Shown: positions 516 through 8,291 of the stretch, piece after piece
How the letters are laid out: each line of letters begins with the position of its first letter
How positions within the stretch are numbered: the first letter of the stretch is position 1
Source: a bacterium
Lineage (GTDB): Bacteria > Krumholzibacteriota > Krumholzibacteria > LZORAL124-64-63
NCBI GenBank assembly: GCA_016873405.1
Contig: VGXH01000013.1
Span: forward strand, 1-12,878
DNA: 12,878 bases
Direction of reading: 5' to 3'
Translations under genes and position numbers: made by a program
Notes under the pieces: generated by a model
The model's input: only the letters and a program-made list of their open reading frames with translations
What the model was told of the DNA's origin: nothing
Databases searched by the model: none

Positions 516-583
516 CTCCGGCAGGGCACCCGGGGCCGGACCGCCGCGCCGGGAGAGCCGCTCGCGAACCCGAAGAGGTCCCC

Positions 584-2053
584 ATGCACGCCGCCCAGCA
601 CGTCCGCACCGCGCCGGAAGACCGCATCGGCTTCGGCCAGCGCCTGGCCTACGGCACCGGGGCCTTCGTCAACAACCTCCTGGGCGCCGCCAGCGGCGGC
701 ATGATGATCGTGCTGAACCTGGGCTTCGGGATGAACCCGGCCCTGGTCGGCATGCTGGGCGCGATCCCGCGCTTCACCGACGCGCTCACCGATCCCATCA
801 TGGGCTTCATCAGCGACGGCACGCGCTCGCGCTGGGGGCGCCGGCGCCCGTGGATCTTCCTGGGCGCGCTCTTGACCGCCGTCCTGTTCGCCCTGCTCTG
901 GCAGCTGCCGCGCGAGCAGAGCGAGATGTTCCACTTCTGGTACTTCATGGTCGGCTCGATCCTCTTCTACATCGGCTACACGATGTTCGCCACGCCGTGG
1001 GTGGCATTGGGCTACGAGCTGACGCCGGACTACCACGAGCGCACGCGCCTGATGGGCACGCAGAACTTCATCGGCCAGACGGCCTTCATGGTCTCGCCCT
1101 GGTTCCTGTGGATCATGACCTACAAGGGGTTCTTCCCCGACCAGGTCGCCGGCGCCTCCGGACTGGCGATCATCCTGGCCGTGGTCGTGGCCGGGCTGGG
1201 CATCCTGCCGGCGATCTTCCTGCGCGAGCGGATGGCGGCGGTCGCCGCGGCCGAGTCGGCGGAACACCGCGAGACGGCCGCGAAGGGCGGCGCCTTCCGG
1301 CGCAACGTCGTCGAGTTCCTGCGCGGCTTCCGCATCACCATGTCCTCCGGCCCCTTCCTCAAGCTGAGCGCCGCCACGTTCCTGCTCTTCAACGGCTTCA
1401 TGCTGATCGCCTCCTTCCAGAGCTACGTGATCATCTACTACGTCTGCGGCGGCGACCAGGAGCTGGGCGCGCGCTGGGCGGGGCTCGCGGGCACGGTCGG
1501 CGGCTTCGCCAACTTCGCCGTCGTGGCGTTCGTGGCCTGGCTGGGCACGCGCATCGGCAAGCGGCACGCGTTCTTCGTCTCGACCAGCGTGGCGATGGTC
1601 GGCTACGCGCTCAAGTGGGTCTGCTACAACCCGCAGGTGCCGTGGCTGGTGGTGCTGCCGGCGCCGCTGCTGGCGTTCAGCCTGGGCGGCCTGTTCACGC
1701 TGGTGCCGTCGATGATCGCCGACGTCGTCGACGCCGACGAACTCAAGACGCACCAGCGGCGCGAGGGCATGTTCGGCTCCATCTTCTGGTTCATGGTCAA
1801 GCTGGGCATGTCCGCCGCGCTGGCCGGCGGCGGCTACATGCTGAACGCCTCCGGCTTCGACGTGGCGCTGGGCGGCGCTCAGGCGCCGGGCACGATCCTG
1901 CTGCTGCGCCTGTTCGACGCCGGCGTGCCCCTGCTCTGCTCGGCGCTGGCCATCTGGGCCGTGGCGACGTTCCCGATCACCGAGGCGCGGGCCTACGAGG
2001 TGCGTCGCGAACTGGAACAGAGGCGCGGCCGCGCCGGCCCGGTGCAGGCGTGA
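584..2053 (+). CDS. GPH-family (MelB-like) cation/sugar symporter, MFS superfamily
   Basis: This 489-residue protein is an inner-membrane transporter of the glycoside-pentoside-hexuronide:cation symporter family, with the usual length and about twelve hydrophobic segments. Near the N-terminus RFTDALTDPIMGFISDGT is followed by RSRWGRRRPW, the family signature. D66 and D70 correspond in spacing to the cation-binding Asp55 and Asp59 of E. coli MelB. A long basic cytoplasmic loop around residues 215-250 separates the two halves. The ATG at 584 is chosen because AGAGG lies about 7 bases upstream and because residues before it (the frame is open back to 89) look non-coding. The gene overlaps the following GH17 glucanase by 4 bases, so an oligoglucoside released by that enzyme is the likely substrate. 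That substrate is inferred from context; the family also carries melibiose, glucuronides and xylosides. Confidence 0.88.
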   Translation: MHAAQHVRTAPEDRIGFGQRLAYGTGAFVNNLLGAASGGMMIVLNLGFGMNPALVGMLGAIPRFTDALTDPIMGFISDGTRSRWGRRRPWIFLGALLTAVLFALLWQLPREQSEMFHFWYFMVGSILFYIGYTMFATPWVALGYELTPDYHERTRLMGTQNFIGQTAFMVSPWFLWIMTYKGFFPDQVAGASGLAIILAVVVAGLGILPAIFLRERMAAVAAAESAEHRETAAKGGAFRRNVVEFLRGFRITMSSGPFLKLSAATFLLFNGFMLIASFQSYVIIYYVCGGDQELGARWAGLAGTVGGFANFAVVAFVAWLGTRIGKRHAFFVSTSVAMVGYALKWVCYNPQVPWLVVLPAPLLAFSLGGLFTLVPSMIADVVDADELKTHQRREGMFGSIFWFMVKLGMSAALAGGGYMLNASGFDVALGGAQAPGTILLLRLFDAGVPLLCSALAIWAVATFPITEARAYEVRRELEQRRGRAGPVQA

Positions 2054-3051
2054 GGCGCGGGCGGGCCGCAGGATCGCTGGCGGCGCTCGCGTTCGGCGCC
2101 GCGCTGGCGTTGGCCTCATCGACCTTGGCCTCATCGACCTTGGCCGCCGTCACGCCCGGCGAACGGCGCCCCTTCCCGCCCGCCGGCCTGCCCACGCCCA
2201 ACGCGATCTGCTACGGCCCCCACCGCGACGGCCAGCGCCCGGGCACCGTGGATCCGGACGCCGCCCAGCTGCGCGAGGACGTCCGCTTGCTGCGCGACCA
2301 CTGGCCGCTGCTGCGCATCTACGGCGCCGGCGGGTTCGCGCGGACCTTGCTGGACGTGCTGCGCGAGGAGGGCGGCCGGCCGCTGGTGGTGCTGGGCGCG
2401 TGGATCGCGCCCCATGACAGCGTCGGCAACCGCGCCGAGATCGAGGCCGCCGTCGCGCTGGCCGCCGCGTACCCCGACCTGGTGGCCGCCGTCTGCGTCG
2501 GCAACGAGACGCAGGTCTCGTGGTCGGCCCACCGCTGCGACCCGGCCATCCTGCTTGACGCTCTGAAGGAAGTGCGCGCCCGCGTGGCCGTGCCGGTGAC
2601 GACCGCCGACGACTACAACTTCTGGAACAAGCCCGAGAGCGCGGCCGTCGCGGCCGAGATCGATTTCATCCTGCTGCACGCCCACCCGCTGTGGAACGGC
2701 AAGCGATTGGACGAGGCCCTGCCCTGGCTGCAGGCGCAGCTGGCCGACGCGCGGACCCGCCACGCGGGCGTGCCGGTGTTCGTCGGCGAGACGGGCTGGG
2801 CCACGCGCCGCCACACCGAGGGCGAACAGGCCACCCTGATGAAGGGCGTCCTCGGCGAGCCGGAGCAGGCGCGCTTCCACGCCGACCTGCGCGCGTGGGC
2901 CGACAGCGCGGGCATGACCACGTTCTTCTTCGAGGCCTTCGACGAGAACTGGAAGGGCGGCGAGCACCCCGACGAGGTCGAGAAGCACTGGGGGCTGTGG
3001 CGGGCCAACCGGTCGCCCAAGCAGGGGGCGCCGGCCGGCGGCCGCCCCTGA
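2050..3051 (+). CDS. Secreted glycoside hydrolase family 17 (beta-1,3-glucanase-like)
   Basis: The 333-residue protein starts at GTG 2050, which shares bases with the TGA of the symporter (GTGA overlap), indicating translational coupling. A basic N-terminus, a hydrophobic stretch and ASSTLAA form a signal peptide ending near residue 35. The rest is a TIM-barrel hydrolase: ICYGPHRDGQRPG opens it, LLRIYGA follows, CVGNE carries the predicted acid/base E153, and FVGETGW the predicted nucleophile E247; FFFEAFDENWK comes near the end. These are the hallmarks of GH17, whose members cut beta-1,3-glucans such as laminarin, while some bacterial members are transglycosylases. The enzyme should act in the periplasm or outside, supplying oligosaccharides to the symporter. 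The signal peptide contains a 15-base tandem duplication. Exact linkage specificity cannot be read from sequence. Confidence 0.85.
   Translation: MRRGRAAGSLAALAFGAALALASSTLASSTLAAVTPGERRPFPPAGLPTPNAICYGPHRDGQRPGTVDPDAAQLREDVRLLRDHWPLLRIYGAGGFARTLLDVLREEGGRPLVVLGAWIAPHDSVGNRAEIEAAVALAAAYPDLVAAVCVGNETQVSWSAHRCDPAILLDALKEVRARVAVPVTTADDYNFWNKPESAAVAAEIDFILLHAHPLWNGKRLDEALPWLQAQLADARTRHAGVPVFVGETGWATRRHTEGEQATLMKGVLGEPEQARFHADLRAWADSAGMTTFFFEAFDENWKGGEHPDEVEKHWGLWRANRSPKQGAPAGGRP
2110..2145 (+). repeat. 15-base tandem duplication within the GH17 signal peptide
   Basis: TTGGCCTCATCGACC occurs at 2110-2124 and again, identical, at 2125-2139, followed by a partial third copy TTGGCC at 2140-2145. It encodes LASST-LASST-LA in frame. 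Third-codon identity between the copies indicates a recent slippage duplication that lengthened the signal peptide h/c-region. Confidence 0.85.
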
Positions 3052-3115: not shown

Positions 3116-3164
3116 CCCGGGGTCCCGCCGATTCCAGGCCCGATCAACCGACAGGAGCCACAAG

Positions 3165-4364
3165 ATGCGCAAGAACGTGCCGGCGCCCGCCCTCGCGGCG
3201 CTGGCCCTGGGCCTGCTCGCCGGCGCGGCCGTGGCCGCCGACGGCGGCCCCGCCACCCTCGACGAGGCGCTGACCCTGGCCCGCCAGCAGGACAAGGTCC
3301 TGATCATCGACTTCTACACCGACTGGTGACCCAGCTGCAAGGTGTTCGCCCGTGAGGCGAGCAGCAGCGACGTCATCAAGGCCGCGCTGGCCGAGGTCGT
3401 CTTCCTGAAGGTGGACTGCGAGAAGGGCGACGGCCCCGCGGTCGCGCAGAAGTACGGTGTCCGCGGCTATCCCACCTACTACGCCGTCAACGCGGACGGC
3501 GAACCCATCGAGCGCTGGATCGGCTACGACGGCCCCGAGGCTTTCGCGCGCTCGGCGGCCGCCGCGCGGCGCGACACGCGCACGCTGGCGCAGAAGCGGG
3601 AGGCCTTCGCCGCGGCGCCCACGGCCGACCTGGCCGTGTCGCTGGCCAACGACGTGGCCACCGGCTACGACTGGGCGGGCGCCGTGAAGCACTTCCGCCA
3701 GGCCCGCGACCTGGACCCCGCCCGCGCCGACGACTGCACGCGCAACATCTTCACCTACATGTTCTACGGCGCCGACGACGGCGGCTTCACCTTCGAGGAG
3801 ATGAAGCTGGAGGGTGACCGCGTGCTGGCGGCGGCCGGCACCACGGACGTCGACCGCGTGGAACTGTCGGCGATGATGCTGCAGCTGGCGCGCCGCCAGG
3901 AGCGGCCCGCCGACGGCATTCCCTACCTGGAGGCCGGGCTGGCGGCGGCGGCCGCGTTGCCGGAGGATTCGCCGGCGGCGCGCACGGTGCGCGGCCTGAA
4001 GGTCGACCATGCGCTGCTGGTGGAGAAGGATGTCGAAAAGGCGATCGGGCTGCGCAAGGCGATGCTGCCGGAGAACTGGCAGCAGGAGCCGCGCCGCCTC
4101 AACCAGTTCGCCTGGTGGTGCCTGGAGAACGGCGTGAACCTCGAGGAGGCCGAGGCGCTGGCGATGCAGGCGGCGGAGCTGGCTGAGGACGCCGGCGACC
4201 GCGCAGGCTACCTCGACACCGCGGCCGAGATCTGCCTGAAGCGCGGCAACTGCGAGCAGGCGATCGCCCGCATCAAGCAGGCGATCGAGCTGGATCCGGA
4301 GCGCGACTACTACAAGGAGCAGCTGGCGAAGTTCGAGGCGGCGGCGGCGCAGAAGAAGGGCTGA
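3165..4364 (+). CDS. Predicted selenoprotein: periplasmic thioredoxin-fold (UxxC) and TPR protein with in-frame TGA at 3327-3329
   Basis: The full frame is 399 residues with Sec at codon 55. ATG 3165 has AGGAG 7 bases upstream and begins a clear signal peptide (MRKNVPAP, then a Leu/Ala core to AVAAD). A thioredoxin fold follows: VLIIDFYTDW, U55-P-S-C58-K, then FLKVDCEKG and GVRGYPTYY with the predicted cis-proline P103. Residues ~145-399 are alpha-helical with TPR-like units (DWAGAVKHFRQARDLDP; NCEQAIARIKQAIELDP). TGA occupies exactly the place of the nucleophilic cysteine (TGC expected). The same frame stays open for 344 codons downstream with normal codon use, and a SECIS-like hairpin follows immediately. 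Starting instead at GTG 3342 would lose the signal peptide and active site. Role: thiol-disulfide exchange in the cell envelope with partners bound by the TPRs; substrate unknown. The alternative is a point-mutated or misread TGC codon. Confidence 0.78.
3327..3329 (+). other. Selenocysteine-type recoded TGA codon
   Basis: TGA at 3327-3329 lies in frame between TGG (W54) and CCC (P56), followed by AGC and TGC. The result W-U-P-S-C-K is the thioredoxin W-C-x-x-C-K active site with Sec for the first cysteine. One base (C to A) separates TGA from the expected TGC. TGA ends most other genes in the window (2051, 3049, 4362, 8289, 9670, 12211), so it is a stop by default here and would need a local signal to be recoded. 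Confidence 0.75.
3330..3368 (+). promoter_or_regulatory. Candidate bacterial SECIS stem-loop directly downstream of the TGA
   Basis: In the mRNA, GCUGC (3334-3338) pairs with GCAGC (3364-3368), an AAGG bulge (3339-3342) follows on the 5' side, then UGUUCGCC (3343-3350) pairs with GGCGAGCA (3356-3363) over eight base pairs, closing a five-base loop CGUGA (3351-3355). The distance from UGA to the loop is 21 nt. Published bacterial SECIS models ask for about 16-37 nt, a small apical loop and a G in its first two bases; all three hold (G at loop position 2, followed by U). SelB binding is inferred. Confidence 0.65.
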
Positions 4365-6153
4365 ACGCGCCGAAGAGCGCTTCCAGCTCCCCGGCTCCCT
4401 CGCTGACGGCCTCGCTGATGCGCCGGCTCTGGCGCAGCGACCAGGCCGTGGTTGCCAGGCGATCGGCGCTCGGCGGTCGCGCGTCACCGCGCGCGGCCGC
4501 CGCGGCCTTGTCGCCGACCAGCGCGTTGAGCAGGCGGGTGGCGCGGGTCCGGTCACCCAGGGCGACCTCGGCCGCGGACAGGAGGGGCAGCGTGCGCGTC
4601 AGACGCGCCGTCTGCCCCGCTTCCAGTTCGGCCAGGGCGCGCGCGGCCAGGCCCGCCGCCGTCCGCGCGGCAGCCGCCGCCGCCGACAACGCCGCCAGTT
4701 CGCGCGCGACCTCGCGCCACAGCGCGGCGGCGTCGGGAGCGATCGCGGCCGCGATCGCCGCGTCCAGGCGCCGGCGCGGAGCGACGGCATCCGCGCCCGG
4801 CGGCTTCGCCGCAAGCGCCGCCGCCAGAGCGTCCGGTTCGATCTCCTCCCAGCCGTGGATGCGCGCGCCGCCGCCGGTGGCATTGATCAGCGCCCGGTCG
4901 CCGGCCCAGGTGTCGGCCGCCGCCTCGAACCACAGGCGGTAGGCGTTGAACGCCGGCCGCGTCGGCACCGGCGACGCCCCGCCCCAGGCCGGGGCCAGTT
5001 CGCCCTGCCACGAGCCGCCGGCCGGCCTGTCCTGCGACGTGAAGACGAAGCGGCCGGTTTCCGCGTCATACTGCCCGCGCCGCCGGCCCTGCGTGCTGCC
5101 GTCAGCGTGCGTGCGCCCGTCCGTCAACGCCAGGTCCATGCCGGTCAGGACCAGCGGATCGCAGCCCAGGCGGTGCAGCGCCGACAGCGCCAGGCAGGCG
5201 ACGCTGCCGCCGCTCGGCAACGGCCGACAGCCCCAGGCACGCTGGAGCCAGTCGCCGGCCGCGGTGTCGCGCACGGCCAGGGCCAGGTTGCGCGCGGGCG
5301 GGACCGCGAAGTGCGCCGGATGCCCTTGGGGATCGGCCAGCAGCAGCACGCGGTCCAGGTGCGGGACGTCCGCGAAATGGGCCGCGTTGTCGTTCGCCTC
5401 GATGACGACGACCAGATCCGGCACGATGCCGGCGCGCGCCAGCGGCGGCAGGGCGGTGCTTGCCGCGCAGAGCAAGGCCCGCCCCTGGAGCCGACGCAGC
5501 GCGTCCAGGCCGCGATCGAGCGAGGGCCCGGCGCCGACGACGACGCCCGGCCAGCCGGCGGCGACGCCCTCCAGGAGGTCGAACGGGAGCTGCGTCGCCA
5601 GCCGTGGCAGGTTCGTCGCCAGGTGGTGCGACCAGACGCCGGCCGAGTGCGACACCGTGACCCGCCGGATGCGCGCGGAGGCCAGCAGACGCTTGACCGC
5701 ATCGACGAAGCGCGCGAACGCCTCGGGCATCTCATCCCGCAGTTCGGGAATCGCGCCGACGGCCACCTGTCGCGAGGCGAGATCGGTGATCGCGGCCGCC
5801 GCTTCGACCAACTCGCCCAGGCTCGCGAACACCTGCACCCGCGGCGGCGCCGACGACGCCGGTGCGGCGGGGCGCGGTTCCCAGACCAGGACCGTTGCCC
5901 CGCAGCGATGTCGGATCGCCTCGGCATGGGCCCCGTCGCCGTGGCCGAGGAAGAAGACCACCTCGGGCGCGCGACCGGCCAGGAAGGCATCGATGCGCCT
6001 GCCGATCGTTTCCGGTTCGCGCCGACCCCCGCTGTCCAGTTCCCGGGCGGTGGCGGCGGCGGGCGCGGCGGGCGCGGCCGCTGCGGCGCCCGCTTCGGCG
6101 GACGCTGCCGGAGCCGCCGAGATCCCTGTTAACCCACTGTCCGACAACGACAT
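4273..6153 (-). CDS. DUF115 / MptE-like protein (motility accessory factor-type)
   Basis: A 626-residue protein starting at ATG 6153, chosen because GGAGG stands four bases upstream on the minus strand; the frame is open 24 codons further but without such a site. After an Ala-rich, disordered-looking N-terminus (residues ~10-40), the core shows VVVGAGPSLDRGLDALRRL (about residue 204 on), PDLVVVIEAND, and SVACLALSALHRLGCDP leading to LVLTGMDLALTDGRTHA. These are the marks of the MptE-like/DUF115 domain. The domain occurs in archaeal pterin pyrophosphokinase MptE and in bacterial Maf proteins that glycosylate flagellin with nonulosonic acids. Size and layout fit the Maf type, so glycosyl transfer to a surface protein is possible, but no flagellin or sugar-synthesis gene is adjacent. 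The last ~30 residues (SPSSAPPPPRTSPA onward) read through the antisense of the thioredoxin-TPR 3' end. Confidence 0.72.
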   Translation of the reverse strand: MSLSDSGLTGISAAPAASAEAGAAAAAPAAPAAATARELDSGGRREPETIGRRIDAFLAGRAPEVVFFLGHGDGAHAEAIRHRCGATVLVWEPRPAAPASSAPPRVQVFASLGELVEAAAAITDLASRQVAVGAIPELRDEMPEAFARFVDAVKRLLASARIRRVTVSHSAGVWSHHLATNLPRLATQLPFDLLEGVAAGWPGVVVGAGPSLDRGLDALRRLQGRALLCAASTALPPLARAGIVPDLVVVIEANDNAAHFADVPHLDRVLLLADPQGHPAHFAVPPARNLALAVRDTAAGDWLQRAWGCRPLPSGGSVACLALSALHRLGCDPLVLTGMDLALTDGRTHADGSTQGRRRGQYDAETGRFVFTSQDRPAGGSWQGELAPAWGGASPVPTRPAFNAYRLWFEAAADTWAGDRALINATGGGARIHGWEEIEPDALAAALAAKPPGADAVAPRRRLDAAIAAAIAPDAAALWREVARELAALSAAAAAARTAAGLAARALAELEAGQTARLTRTLPLLSAAEVALGDRTRATRLLNALVGDKAAAAARGDARPPSADRLATTAWSLRQSRRISEAVSEGAGELEALFGAFSPSSAPPPPRTSPAAPCSSRAPDPARSPA

Positions 6154-6322
6154 CAGACCTCCGGGCGCGGGCCCGCGCGCAGGTAGGCGCACCGGGGTCA
6201 TCCCGCCGGAGCACTCCCGCGTCACCTCAGGTCGCGCGACGCGCGGAGCCGATGCAACCGGCGTACCGGCGGCGCGGCGGCGGCGGGCAGGGCCCGGGCG
6301 ATCGGCGGGCCGGACACGAGAT

Positions 6323-6428: not shown

Positions 6429-8291
6429 ATGACGCTGCTCGGAACGAACGGTGAGACGATCCTCGATACCGCCGGCCAACCGGTGCCGGCGCACGTGTCG
6501 GCCTTCGTCCGCGCGCTGGACCGCCTGCTGACGGTGAGCGCCTACTACGCCGATGGCCACGACCAGCACCTGCGCGCGATCGCGACCGCGGCCGAGGCCA
6601 TGACGGCCGCGATCGGGGCCCGCCCTTGGCTGGCCCTCGAGGTGTCGGCCGCCGGGTTGATCGTGGACGGCGTCACCGTGGACCCGCGCCAACGCGGCGC
6701 GCGCCAGGTGCACGACCTGCTGGTCGCGCTCGACATCGCCAACCTCAGCTTCTCGCCCCGGATGACGGCGCCCGACCTGCGCGCCGCGCTGTCGGCGCTG
6801 CAGGCGCATCGACTGGCCCGACACCAGGCGCACAGCTTTCGCGCCCTCGCGTTGGAGGGGCTGCCGCCGACGGTCTGCGCCGCGAACCGGCGCCTGCAGG
6901 CGACCGGCCAGCTGGGGCCGGCGGCAACCGGGACCGACGAGGCGCGAACTGGCGACCAGGTGCAGGCCGGCGCCGAACTGCTGGATGTGCTGCGCCGGAT
7001 CGTCAGCGGACGGGAACCGGGCGACCGGGCGCCTGACTCCGGCCAGCACCGACCGCTCGATCTGTCCGCCGAGGACCTGGAAGCCATTCGCGACGGCGTC
7101 CGGCGGCTGCTCGCGCGCGACCCGGGCGCCGGCGAGCTGTCGGCGCTGCTGGGTCTCGCCGCGCAGGCGCTGGAACTGGGAGGCGCGCCCGCGGCGATGC
7201 GTCTTGCCTTCGCGCAGTTGAGCCGCCGGGTCGCGCCGTCCGCGGCCTCGACGTCGACGCCGGCTCCCCGCCCGGACGAACACGCCCGGTCCGTGGGGGA
7301 TCTGTCGCGTCTGGTCGCCGACCTGGCGGCGCGCGCGCCGGCGATCGGCGACCCGGCCGTCGAATCCCGCCGCGACCAGGTGGCGATCTGCTTCCGTCTG
7401 CTGGCCAACGGCGCGCGGGACGAGTCCTTCGCCCCGGCCCTGACGGCGCTGGAAGCGGGCTGTGCCGCAACGCGCCCGGACCCCGCCGAAGCCGCCCTGT
7501 ACGCGGCCGCGTTGCGCTGGCTCGCCACTACCGCCGCGGCATCGGACATCGATCGCGCGCTGCCGCCCCTGCTGGCGGGCTTGCGCGCGGCGCAACCCGA
7601 CCTCCCGGCGCGGATCTGGGCGGCCGTCGCCGAAGAGATCGAGCCTCCCGCGCTCTCGTCGTTGTGGCCGCACCTGGTCAACGACGTGGCCCTGGGTCTG
7701 GAGCCCGCTGAACCGTCGGCGATCGAGCGCTGCTGCCGGCTGGCGGGGTCGCTGGACGCCGCGGAGGCGGTGCGCCAGGCGCCGCGCTTCCTGGCCCTGC
7801 CCGGCGCCAGGCGCGCCGTCGTCCCGCGAGAGGTCTTCCTGCTGCCGCCGCAGCGGTCGTTTGGCCTGCACGCGGCGCTGCTGAAGGGAGCCGCCGCCGC
7901 CCGCCACGCGACGAACCTGCTGCGCGAGCTGCGGCGCCGTCCGCCGGACGAGCTGACCGGGATCGTCCTGGCTGCGCTCGACGGCGTGGGCGCCGTCGAT
8001 GCCGGGCTGCTGCTGGAGATCCTGCGCGAGGGCGGCCGGAGCGAGGCTTCGCCGGACTTCCGGTCGTTCGCCGCCACGTTGCTGACCGATACCGTCGAGG
8101 CGCTCCCCGCCGAGCGTCGCGGCGAGGCCTGGGTCGTGAGCGCCCTCGCCTGGCTGGCGCGCAACGCGCCGAACCGGGCGGGCGAGCTGCTGAACCGCGT
8201 CGACAGCCAGCGGAACTTGCTGCTGCGCCCGGCCTGGCCCGAGGCCTGCCGCGTCGCCGCGCGGGCGACGACGCCCGTCGGAGGCAACTGA
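6429..8291 (+). CDS. Unnamed alpha-helical protein partnered with HD-GYP, HEAT-like
   Basis: A 620-residue soluble protein with no signal peptide. ATG 6429 is chosen because AGGA (6416-6419) lies nine bases upstream and the residues before it are Arg/Gly/Pro-rich noise. Residues ~30-125 (YYADGHDQHL; LIVDGVTVDP; LDIANLSFSPRMTAPDLRAA) match the pattern of a domain seen N-terminal to many HD-GYP proteins: a helix with a GH-x-x motif, a short beta unit ending in V-x-G, then a helix and a phrase like G-I-x-x-L-x-F-x-x-x-x-T-x-x-D-L. The remainder is Ala/Leu-rich helices resembling HEAT repeats. The downstream HD-GYP gene begins one base after the stop, so the two are surely co-translated. A scaffold or sensor for that enzyme is inferred. 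No catalytic motif is visible. Confidence 0.7.
   Translation: MTLLGTNGETILDTAGQPVPAHVSAFVRALDRLLTVSAYYADGHDQHLRAIATAAEAMTAAIGARPWLALEVSAAGLIVDGVTVDPRQRGARQVHDLLVALDIANLSFSPRMTAPDLRAALSALQAHRLARHQAHSFRALALEGLPPTVCAANRRLQATGQLGPAATGTDEARTGDQVQAGAELLDVLRRIVSGREPGDRAPDSGQHRPLDLSAEDLEAIRDGVRRLLARDPGAGELSALLGLAAQALELGGAPAAMRLAFAQLSRRVAPSAASTSTPAPRPDEHARSVGDLSRLVADLAARAPAIGDPAVESRRDQVAICFRLLANGARDESFAPALTALEAGCAATRPDPAEAALYAAALRWLATTAAASDIDRALPPLLAGLRAAQPDLPARIWAAVAEEIEPPALSSLWPHLVNDVALGLEPAEPSAIERCCRLAGSLDAAEAVRQAPRFLALPGARRAVVPREVFLLPPQRSFGLHAALLKGAAAARHATNLLRELRRRPPDELTGIVLAALDGVGAVDAGLLLEILREGGRSEASPDFRSFAATLLTDTVEALPAERRGEAWVVSALAWLARNAPNRAGELLNRVDSQRNLLLRPAWPEACRVAARATTPVGGN

Follow-up and report, generated by a model that had tools for sequence, protein, structure and literature searches.

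A conserved thioredoxin-TPR protein family with a probable active-site selenocysteine in Krumholzibacteriota and other bacterial phyla

An in-frame TGA codon in a thioredoxin-TPR gene of a Krumholzibacteriota bacterium was found to be conserved in a family of related genes and is probably decoded as selenocysteine (Sec), a reading to which we assign a probability of about 0.95 from comparative sequence evidence. The gene lies in the window, the whole stretch of 12,878 nucleotides that was analysed (contig VGXH01000013.1 of GenBank assembly GCA_016873405.1), and its features are collected in Table 1. A sequence-only reading had described a frame from ATG 3165 to TGA 4364 interrupted by TGA 3327-3329 alone, at the first active-site position (W-U-P-S-C), and had proposed that this codon, number 55 of 399, probably specifies Sec. 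The first claim was borne out by the frame; the second gained support from the alternation of TGA and Cys codons among relatives, from a covarying hairpin resembling a SECIS element and from the presence of selA, selB, selC and selD in most of the relatives' genomes. The group comprises, as named in the record titles, Krumholzibacteriota, Zixiibacteriota, Eiseniibacteriota, Acidobacteriota and Latescibacterota.

The residues flanking codon 55 read DFYTDW-U-PSCKVFARE. The TGA is flanked on either side by what looks like coding sequence, since GC3 is 100% across the 54 codons 5' of it and 95.6% across the 344 codons 3' of it, in a window with a G+C content of 73%. The gene itself showed no decay, as had been claimed earlier. 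The window was also scanned with Rfam and for tRNA, with no match; the absent Rfam match was not counted against the SECIS-like hairpin, because such hairpins vary by gene.

Table 1. Features of the predicted selenoprotein gene in the window.
Feature	Position	Strand	Basis
Predicted thioredoxin-TPR selenoprotein gene of 399 codons, with Sec at TGA 3327-3329	3165..4364	+	open frame, GC3, homologues
End stop of the gene, TGA	4362-4364	+	frame
Shine-Dalgarno-like AGGAG, 5' of ATG 3165	3153..3157	+	by eye
Probable signal peptide, about residues 1-25	3165..3239	+	hydrophobic N-terminus in window and relatives, by eye
Thioredoxin-fold domain, DsbD-gamma-like, about residues 31-131	3255..3557	+	PF13899 51.6 bits; PDB profile and fold matches to DsbD gamma
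TGA, probable selenocysteine codon, residue 55	3327..3329	+	TGA/Cys alternation among relatives
Predicted U-P-S-C redox motif; Cys58 at 3336-3338	3327..3338	+	Cys58 in 45/45 aligned rows
SECIS-like hairpin core TTCGCC-CGTGA-GGCGAG, loop 3351-3355	3345..3361	+	fold, covariation, codon-shuffle test, 42/42 TGA members
Predicted cis-proline Pro103 (GYPT)	3471..3473	+	Pro in 45/45 rows; cis form inferred
C-terminal helical TPR-like domain, residues 141-398, invariant W318-C319	3585..4358	+	AlphaFold2 model; TPR fold matches

A DNA scan of a genome contig collection gave 67 loci. At the position aligned with codon 55, TGA was found in 37 and a Cys or Ser codon in 27, while three (L022, L047 and L050) stop short of the codon and were unreadable; TAA or TAG did not occur. 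The loci without TGA fall into 11 that match the whole thioredoxin-TPR protein, with Cys in ten and Ser (TCG) in L033, and the thioredoxin-only kin (L051 and L053-L067, of which L056 matches weakly past the thioredoxin part), with Cys in 16 of 16. A second search covered the class-level set to which the nearest genome, G001, belongs (80 genomes), and a strong family match (E ≤ 1e-60) was present in 34 of these, which include three added Cys forms and some others with Cys. Seven further family loci carried TGA (L075, L078, L082 and L083) or Cys (L079, L080 and L081); the remote paralogues L084 and L085 carry Cys and were kept out of the family counts. Together with the window, 56 family members were readable, with TGA in 42, Cys in 13 and Ser in one and neither TAA nor TAG in any, which agrees with the alternation that the sequence-only reading had named as support if seen in homologues at this codon. 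A plasmid collection yielded five records only, with weak matches confined to the thioredoxin part. One assembly, M3-44_Bin_119, holds both a TGA form (L039) and the paralogue L033, in which Ser replaces the nucleophile.

The TGA-form members share about 29-69% identity with the window protein. At the level of sequence conservation a chance occurrence of TGA at codon 55 is excluded, because the same codon is TGA in 37 of the 67 scanned loci and in four of the seven further ones. Relatives with frameshifts had been named as a possible sign of decay, and one was found: L052 contains several frameshifts and is broken. In the 38 genes checked (the 37 loci and the window), the frame 3' of the TGA nevertheless measured 335-350 codons in all but three, namely L023 (529), L052 (55) and L039, which runs into the contig end. 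Among the four added TGA members the corresponding frame was 336-344 codons in three, and L083 runs into the contig end. The terminal stop of the 38 TGA-form genes was TGA in 19 (L052 included), TAG in 14 and TAA in four, so TGA also serves as a normal stop in these genes.

A protein search with the read-through query scored the 7998 candidates sharing most words with it, a selection that favours close relatives, and returned 49 matches. Forty-six were family members at 38-100% identity, among them the window's own entry (P0002); three more distant matches (P0048-P0050) were left out of the family count. The first residue of the family proteins corresponded to residue 60 in 41 of the 46, to 65 in one, 71 in two, 75 in one and 131 in one. 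None of the 46 thus begins before residue 60, which is what gene callers would produce by treating the TGA as a stop, and all lack the active-site residue because they begin past the Sec codon. No full-length Cys form was present among the matches to these 7998 word-sharing candidates, in which close relatives are favoured.

The hairpin 3' of the TGA lies 21 nt from the UGA in the window and has 6-8 bp and a 5-nt loop, CGUGA, with G at position 2 followed by U. Folding of a 42-nt segment (-20.3 kcal/mol) predicted a longer stem, reaching to 3343-3363, and a second, outer one at 3334-3338/3364-3368. These values fall within the bacterial SECIS model given in section 5 of PMC13188914, with a loop of 3-9 nt, G in the first two loop positions, a distance of 16-37 nt from the UGA, a stem of 4-16 bp and an MFE ≤ -7.5. 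For comparison among loci, columns were numbered from the TGA, and the stem was defined as the pairing of 19-24 with 30-35 (3345-3350 and 3356-3361 in the window). Standard pairs occupied 228 of 228 stem cells in 38 TGA loci, and double changes were seen in three of the six stem pairs (10 cells). The covariation score of 0.328 was equalled by none of 500 shuffles, control (a) of this test being one that does not preserve relatedness; the number of further standard pair types was not above the shuffles, 464 of 500 being as high. When the stem partners were shifted, pairing fell to 38-58%.

Codon choice in the hairpin was also assessed, with each gene's own codon usage or, where the gene is short, pooled usage. 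All six pairs were kept in 38 of 38 genes, versus 5.6 expected under synonymous codon choice; the joint log-probability of this test, in which related rows count as independent, was set aside. The loop Arg codon was CGT in 34 of 38, CGT making up 9.2% of the Arg codons elsewhere in the same genes. The six pairs are possible in all 42 TGA members versus two of the 14 Cys/Ser members, namely L021, with a GU loop, and L042, whose loop is altered. When the 42 nt that follow the TGA were folded, the structure of lowest energy held all six pairs in 33 of the 42 TGA members and not in the other nine, and an energy at or below -7.5 kcal/mol was obtained for 40 of the 42, all except L024 and L052.

Genes for Sec synthesis and insertion were common in the relatives' genomes. 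Among the 50 genomes with scanned loci, matches over the curated cut-offs were found for tRNA-Sec in 43, selB in 44, selA in 45 and selD in 46, and in the 14 control genomes in five, two, one and two respectively. The tRNA-Sec cut-off is loose, as five of 14 controls pass it (three of 14 at E 1e-9) and the matches in G024 (49 bits) and G048 (47 bits) are borderline. Each of the 37 scanned TGA-form genomes had one or more of selA, selB and tRNA-Sec over the cut-off, and 29 had all three; only selB was found in G040 and only selA in G005. All three were missing from 0 of 37 TGA-form versus two of ten Cys-only genomes (G034 and G037), and with seven more genomes, in which selA and tRNA-Sec alone were tested, from 0 of 41 versus two of 13 (Fisher p ~0.05, uncorrected for kinship), a weak association that is no main argument. 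The anticodon was TCA in all 14 tRNA-Sec genes examined, which were chosen among strong matches, and in all 15 genomes chosen for a selD match holding one TGA, that codon lay in frame at the GUxxK site of SelD. The nearest genome, G001, has selA, a selD of the Sec form and tRNA-Sec, but its best selB match, of 187 bits, is below the cut-off, which counts against Sec decoding of the window's gene. In the class-level set of G001 selA was over the cut-off in 77 of 80 genomes (27/28 and 50/52), so kinship makes it very probable that the organism of the window uses Sec, and the machinery for the window's gene is likewise deduced from its kin. For the same reason, and because the Cys-form genomes G055-G057 also carry selA and tRNA-Sec, the presence of the machinery is weak evidence for the thioredoxin-TPR gene itself.

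Three other accounts of the TGA were weighed against decoding as Sec. If the catalytic Cys codon had suffered a nonsense mutation or a sequencing error and the frame were otherwise a remnant, a change of the one base that separates TGA from TGC or TGT would be enough, and L052 is indeed broken by frameshifts; the recurrence of the TGA in 42 members that share about 29-69% identity with the window, the long frame that follows it and the covariation of the hairpin speak against this, and with such conservation the account is in effect refuted and its chance negligible. A tRNA reading opal, through a code change or a suppressor, might instead place Cys or another residue at the UGA. An opal-reading tRNA-Cys is known, and 13 of the 14 family members without TGA have Cys there. 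This is nonetheless very improbable: TGA doubles as terminal stop in half of these genes (19/38), the tRNA-Sec examined have the anticodon TCA, the covarying hairpin fits the SECIS rules, and in such genomes the known Sec site of SelD is itself encoded by TGA.

It might also be supposed that the TGA terminates translation, which then starts afresh at GTG 3342 to make the downstream part as a TPR protein lacking a signal peptide; this would fit the 41 database entries beginning at residue 60. With such a start every lineage would lose the first strand of the thioredoxin fold together with its active site, while the Cys-form relatives are single uninterrupted frames and the conserved hairpin sits just over the supposed start, so that we find this account hardly credible. 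Decoding of the UGA as Sec is preferred.

In Pfam, Thioredoxin_7 (PF13899) matched residues 31-109 with 51.6 bits, and the matches of Thioredoxin_7, Thioredoxin and Thioredoxin_2 all lie inside residues 31-128. A structure was predicted with AlphaFold2 from a 45-row alignment with Cys substituted for Sec (mean pLDDT 94.1, pTM 0.86). The model shows a thioredoxin fold with residue 55 immediately N-terminal to a helix beginning at 56, and residues 141-398 form helices only. A fold search of the PDB returned YbbN (3qou) as top match by E-value (3.1e-6), and also consensus TPR superhelices and DsbD gamma; sequence profiles concur on DsbD gamma and TPR. The TPR part announced by the sequence-only reading agrees with the helical model and the fold matches, although the Pfam TPR matches stayed under the gathering score. 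The best NCBIfam match was the DsbD C-terminus, which scored 54.7 bits where the cut-off for the whole protein is 330.

Cys58, Pro103, W318 and Cys319 are invariant in the 45 aligned rows. Pro103, which had been put forward as the cis-proline, is upheld as a conserved residue, its cis form being a prediction. Half of the Sec rows (17 of 34) have PS between U and C, and GP stands between the active-site residues in six of 11 Cys/Ser rows versus 0 of 34 Sec rows. A third Cys of the thioredoxin domain, Cys85 (3417-3419, DCEKG), was seen in 21 of 34 Sec rows versus one of 11 Cys/Ser rows; it might serve as an additional resolving residue, or the pattern may reflect only kinship. In the helical domain the motif FAWWC (4107-4121, residues 315-319) contains a Trp-Cys pair shared by all 45 rows, a degree of conservation that seems surprising in a plain TPR scaffold. 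By eye the N-termini resemble signal peptides, some relatives having a lipobox-like Cys.

SelB and Sec-tRNA-Sec would decode UGA 3327-3329 as Sec, steered by the hairpin at 3345-3361, to give a protein in which a DsbD-gamma/thioredoxin-like domain, with U-x-x-C as its active site, precedes a TPR-like helical domain. From its fold and motifs the protein looks exported, and would most likely act as a thiol-disulfide oxidoreductase in the cell envelope. Sec55 would attack a substrate disulfide (or sulfenate), Cys58 would resolve it, the TPR part would bind the substrate or a partner, and electrons might be returned by a DsbD/CcdA-type membrane protein; the direction of the reaction, the binding role and the electron donor are likewise suggested by fold and motifs. 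The presence of DsbD_TM over its cut-off in 15 of 15 genomes tested is not specific, since 10 of 14 controls also have it. An envelope oxidoreductase with a TPR part for substrate or partner is thus favoured, if by a modest lead over even odds.

Another alternative concerns function, and is weighed apart from those on decoding: a CnoX-like envelope chaperedoxin, that is, a holdase guarding its clients from irreversible oxidation and not a plain disulfide reductase. CnoX/YbbN (3qou) likewise has a thioredoxin domain followed by a TPR domain, it is the best PDB match by E-value, and roles of both domains have been described in CnoX (PMC11241051). However, the domain packing is unlike that of the window protein (TM-score just 0.23/0.32, rmsd 21.2), no CnoX/YbbN model is among the Pfam and NCBIfam matches, the clients of CnoX go to cytosolic chaperones, and the thioredoxin domain of the window protein fits DsbD gamma better (2fwe and 1uc7, about 26% identity, TMt 0.68). 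A CnoX-like function is consequently judged unlikely, though it keeps an appreciable share. CnoX also differs in having SxxC or CxxC without Sec (PMC11241051). In DsbD the gamma domain is C-terminal on a membrane protein, whereas the corresponding domain in the window is N-terminal and fused to TPR-like helices.

For a tree of the family 62 proteins were assembled, from which the short L052 and L083 and four thioredoxin-only kin were removed, and 56 rows were used, labelled Sec (40) or Cys (16, a label also given to the Ser row L033 and to the remote L056 and L084). The window falls in a four-row Sec set (support 100/100). The label requires six changes (bootstrap 5-7) versus a shuffled mean of 14.1, at least three of them forced by well-supported branches, in a tree rooted at midpoint only and with a bootstrap that had not settled. 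The Cys gene L021, with its hairpin kept, groups with three Sec rows in a set of four from Zixiibacteriota (100/98), and L042 forms a pair with the Sec row L044, a long branch (98/97). At L021:2717-2770 the TGC form is followed by a full SECIS-like hairpin with a GU loop. A Cys gene with an intact hairpin inside a Sec clade points to Sec-to-Cys reversion, and the hairpin of L021 is a probable fossil SECIS left by such an event, judging from the alignment and tree. Sec-to-Cys reversions are called rare in bacteria (PMC13188914, section 10). A fuller scenario would have the protein act as a Sec-based envelope chaperedoxin that reduces or shields oxidised Cys residues of clients held on its own TPR part, old in several phyla, with Cys versions arising more than once and at least one keeping a fossil SECIS; as a whole this is speculative and rather doubtful.

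Gene context yields no function for the family, as no redox operon was recognised by eye among the ORFs around seven of the loci. ORF clustering over 52 loci for a conserved neighbourhood returned largely antisense ORFs and the gene itself. Upstream of L003 lies an amidohydrolase-like lipoprotein, with a related ORF upstream in some other loci. In the window an MFS_2 sugar transporter and then a GH17-like glycosyl hydrolase (533-3048) lie just 5' of the predicted selenoprotein gene, and an MptE-like (PF01973) frame on the reverse strand (4273-6225) overlaps its 3' end in antisense. Further on, a 618-aa frame at 6435-8288 has no Pfam match at E 0.001 and is followed directly by an HD-domain gene.

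The sequence-only reading had not recognised any secreted Sec thioredoxin joined to TPRs, and our comparison agrees with this. There is no entry for the family in Table 1, with 119 selenoprotein families, of the 2026 catalogue (PMC13188914), and no NCBIfam model is over its cut-off for the window protein. A thioredoxin-TPR selenoprotein was not found in the accessible text of PMC12013277 and PMC9312934, and a term search of that of PMC5029168 gave no mention of TPR or thioredoxin. No paper on such a protein was found in a literature search that had most subscription papers and bioRxiv preprints outside its range. A predicted selenoprotein family with a DsbD-gamma-like thioredoxin domain and a UxxC motif (U-P-S-C in the window) is already on record as 'Trx-like 2' (cd02953; PMC2398784), and a Thiol:disulfide interchange protein family (PF13098, UxxC) is listed in PMC13188914, Table 1; going by the names we read these as one family, with WP_011366075.1 as reference protein. 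Its table rows mention no TPR part, and it is by this description that the present family is set apart. Since the Trx-like 2 UxxC family is already listed, the thioredoxin-TPR proteins appear to form a new family of this known, DsbD-gamma-like kind of Sec protein. The Bacteroidota proteins found in the scan (L053-L055 and L057-L067) share the thioredoxin-fold domain at 27-36% identity, but have Cys in 14 of 14 and match mainly over residues 1-169.

The thioredoxin-TPR proteins add a well-conserved, apparently unlisted family to the selenoproteins. They are a ready case for re-annotation, as the database entries found carry the truncated form only. The Cys genes that keep the hairpin would offer a direct view of Sec-to-Cys reversion, and the family raises the question why a highly reactive Sec is used in a redox protein that looks exported.
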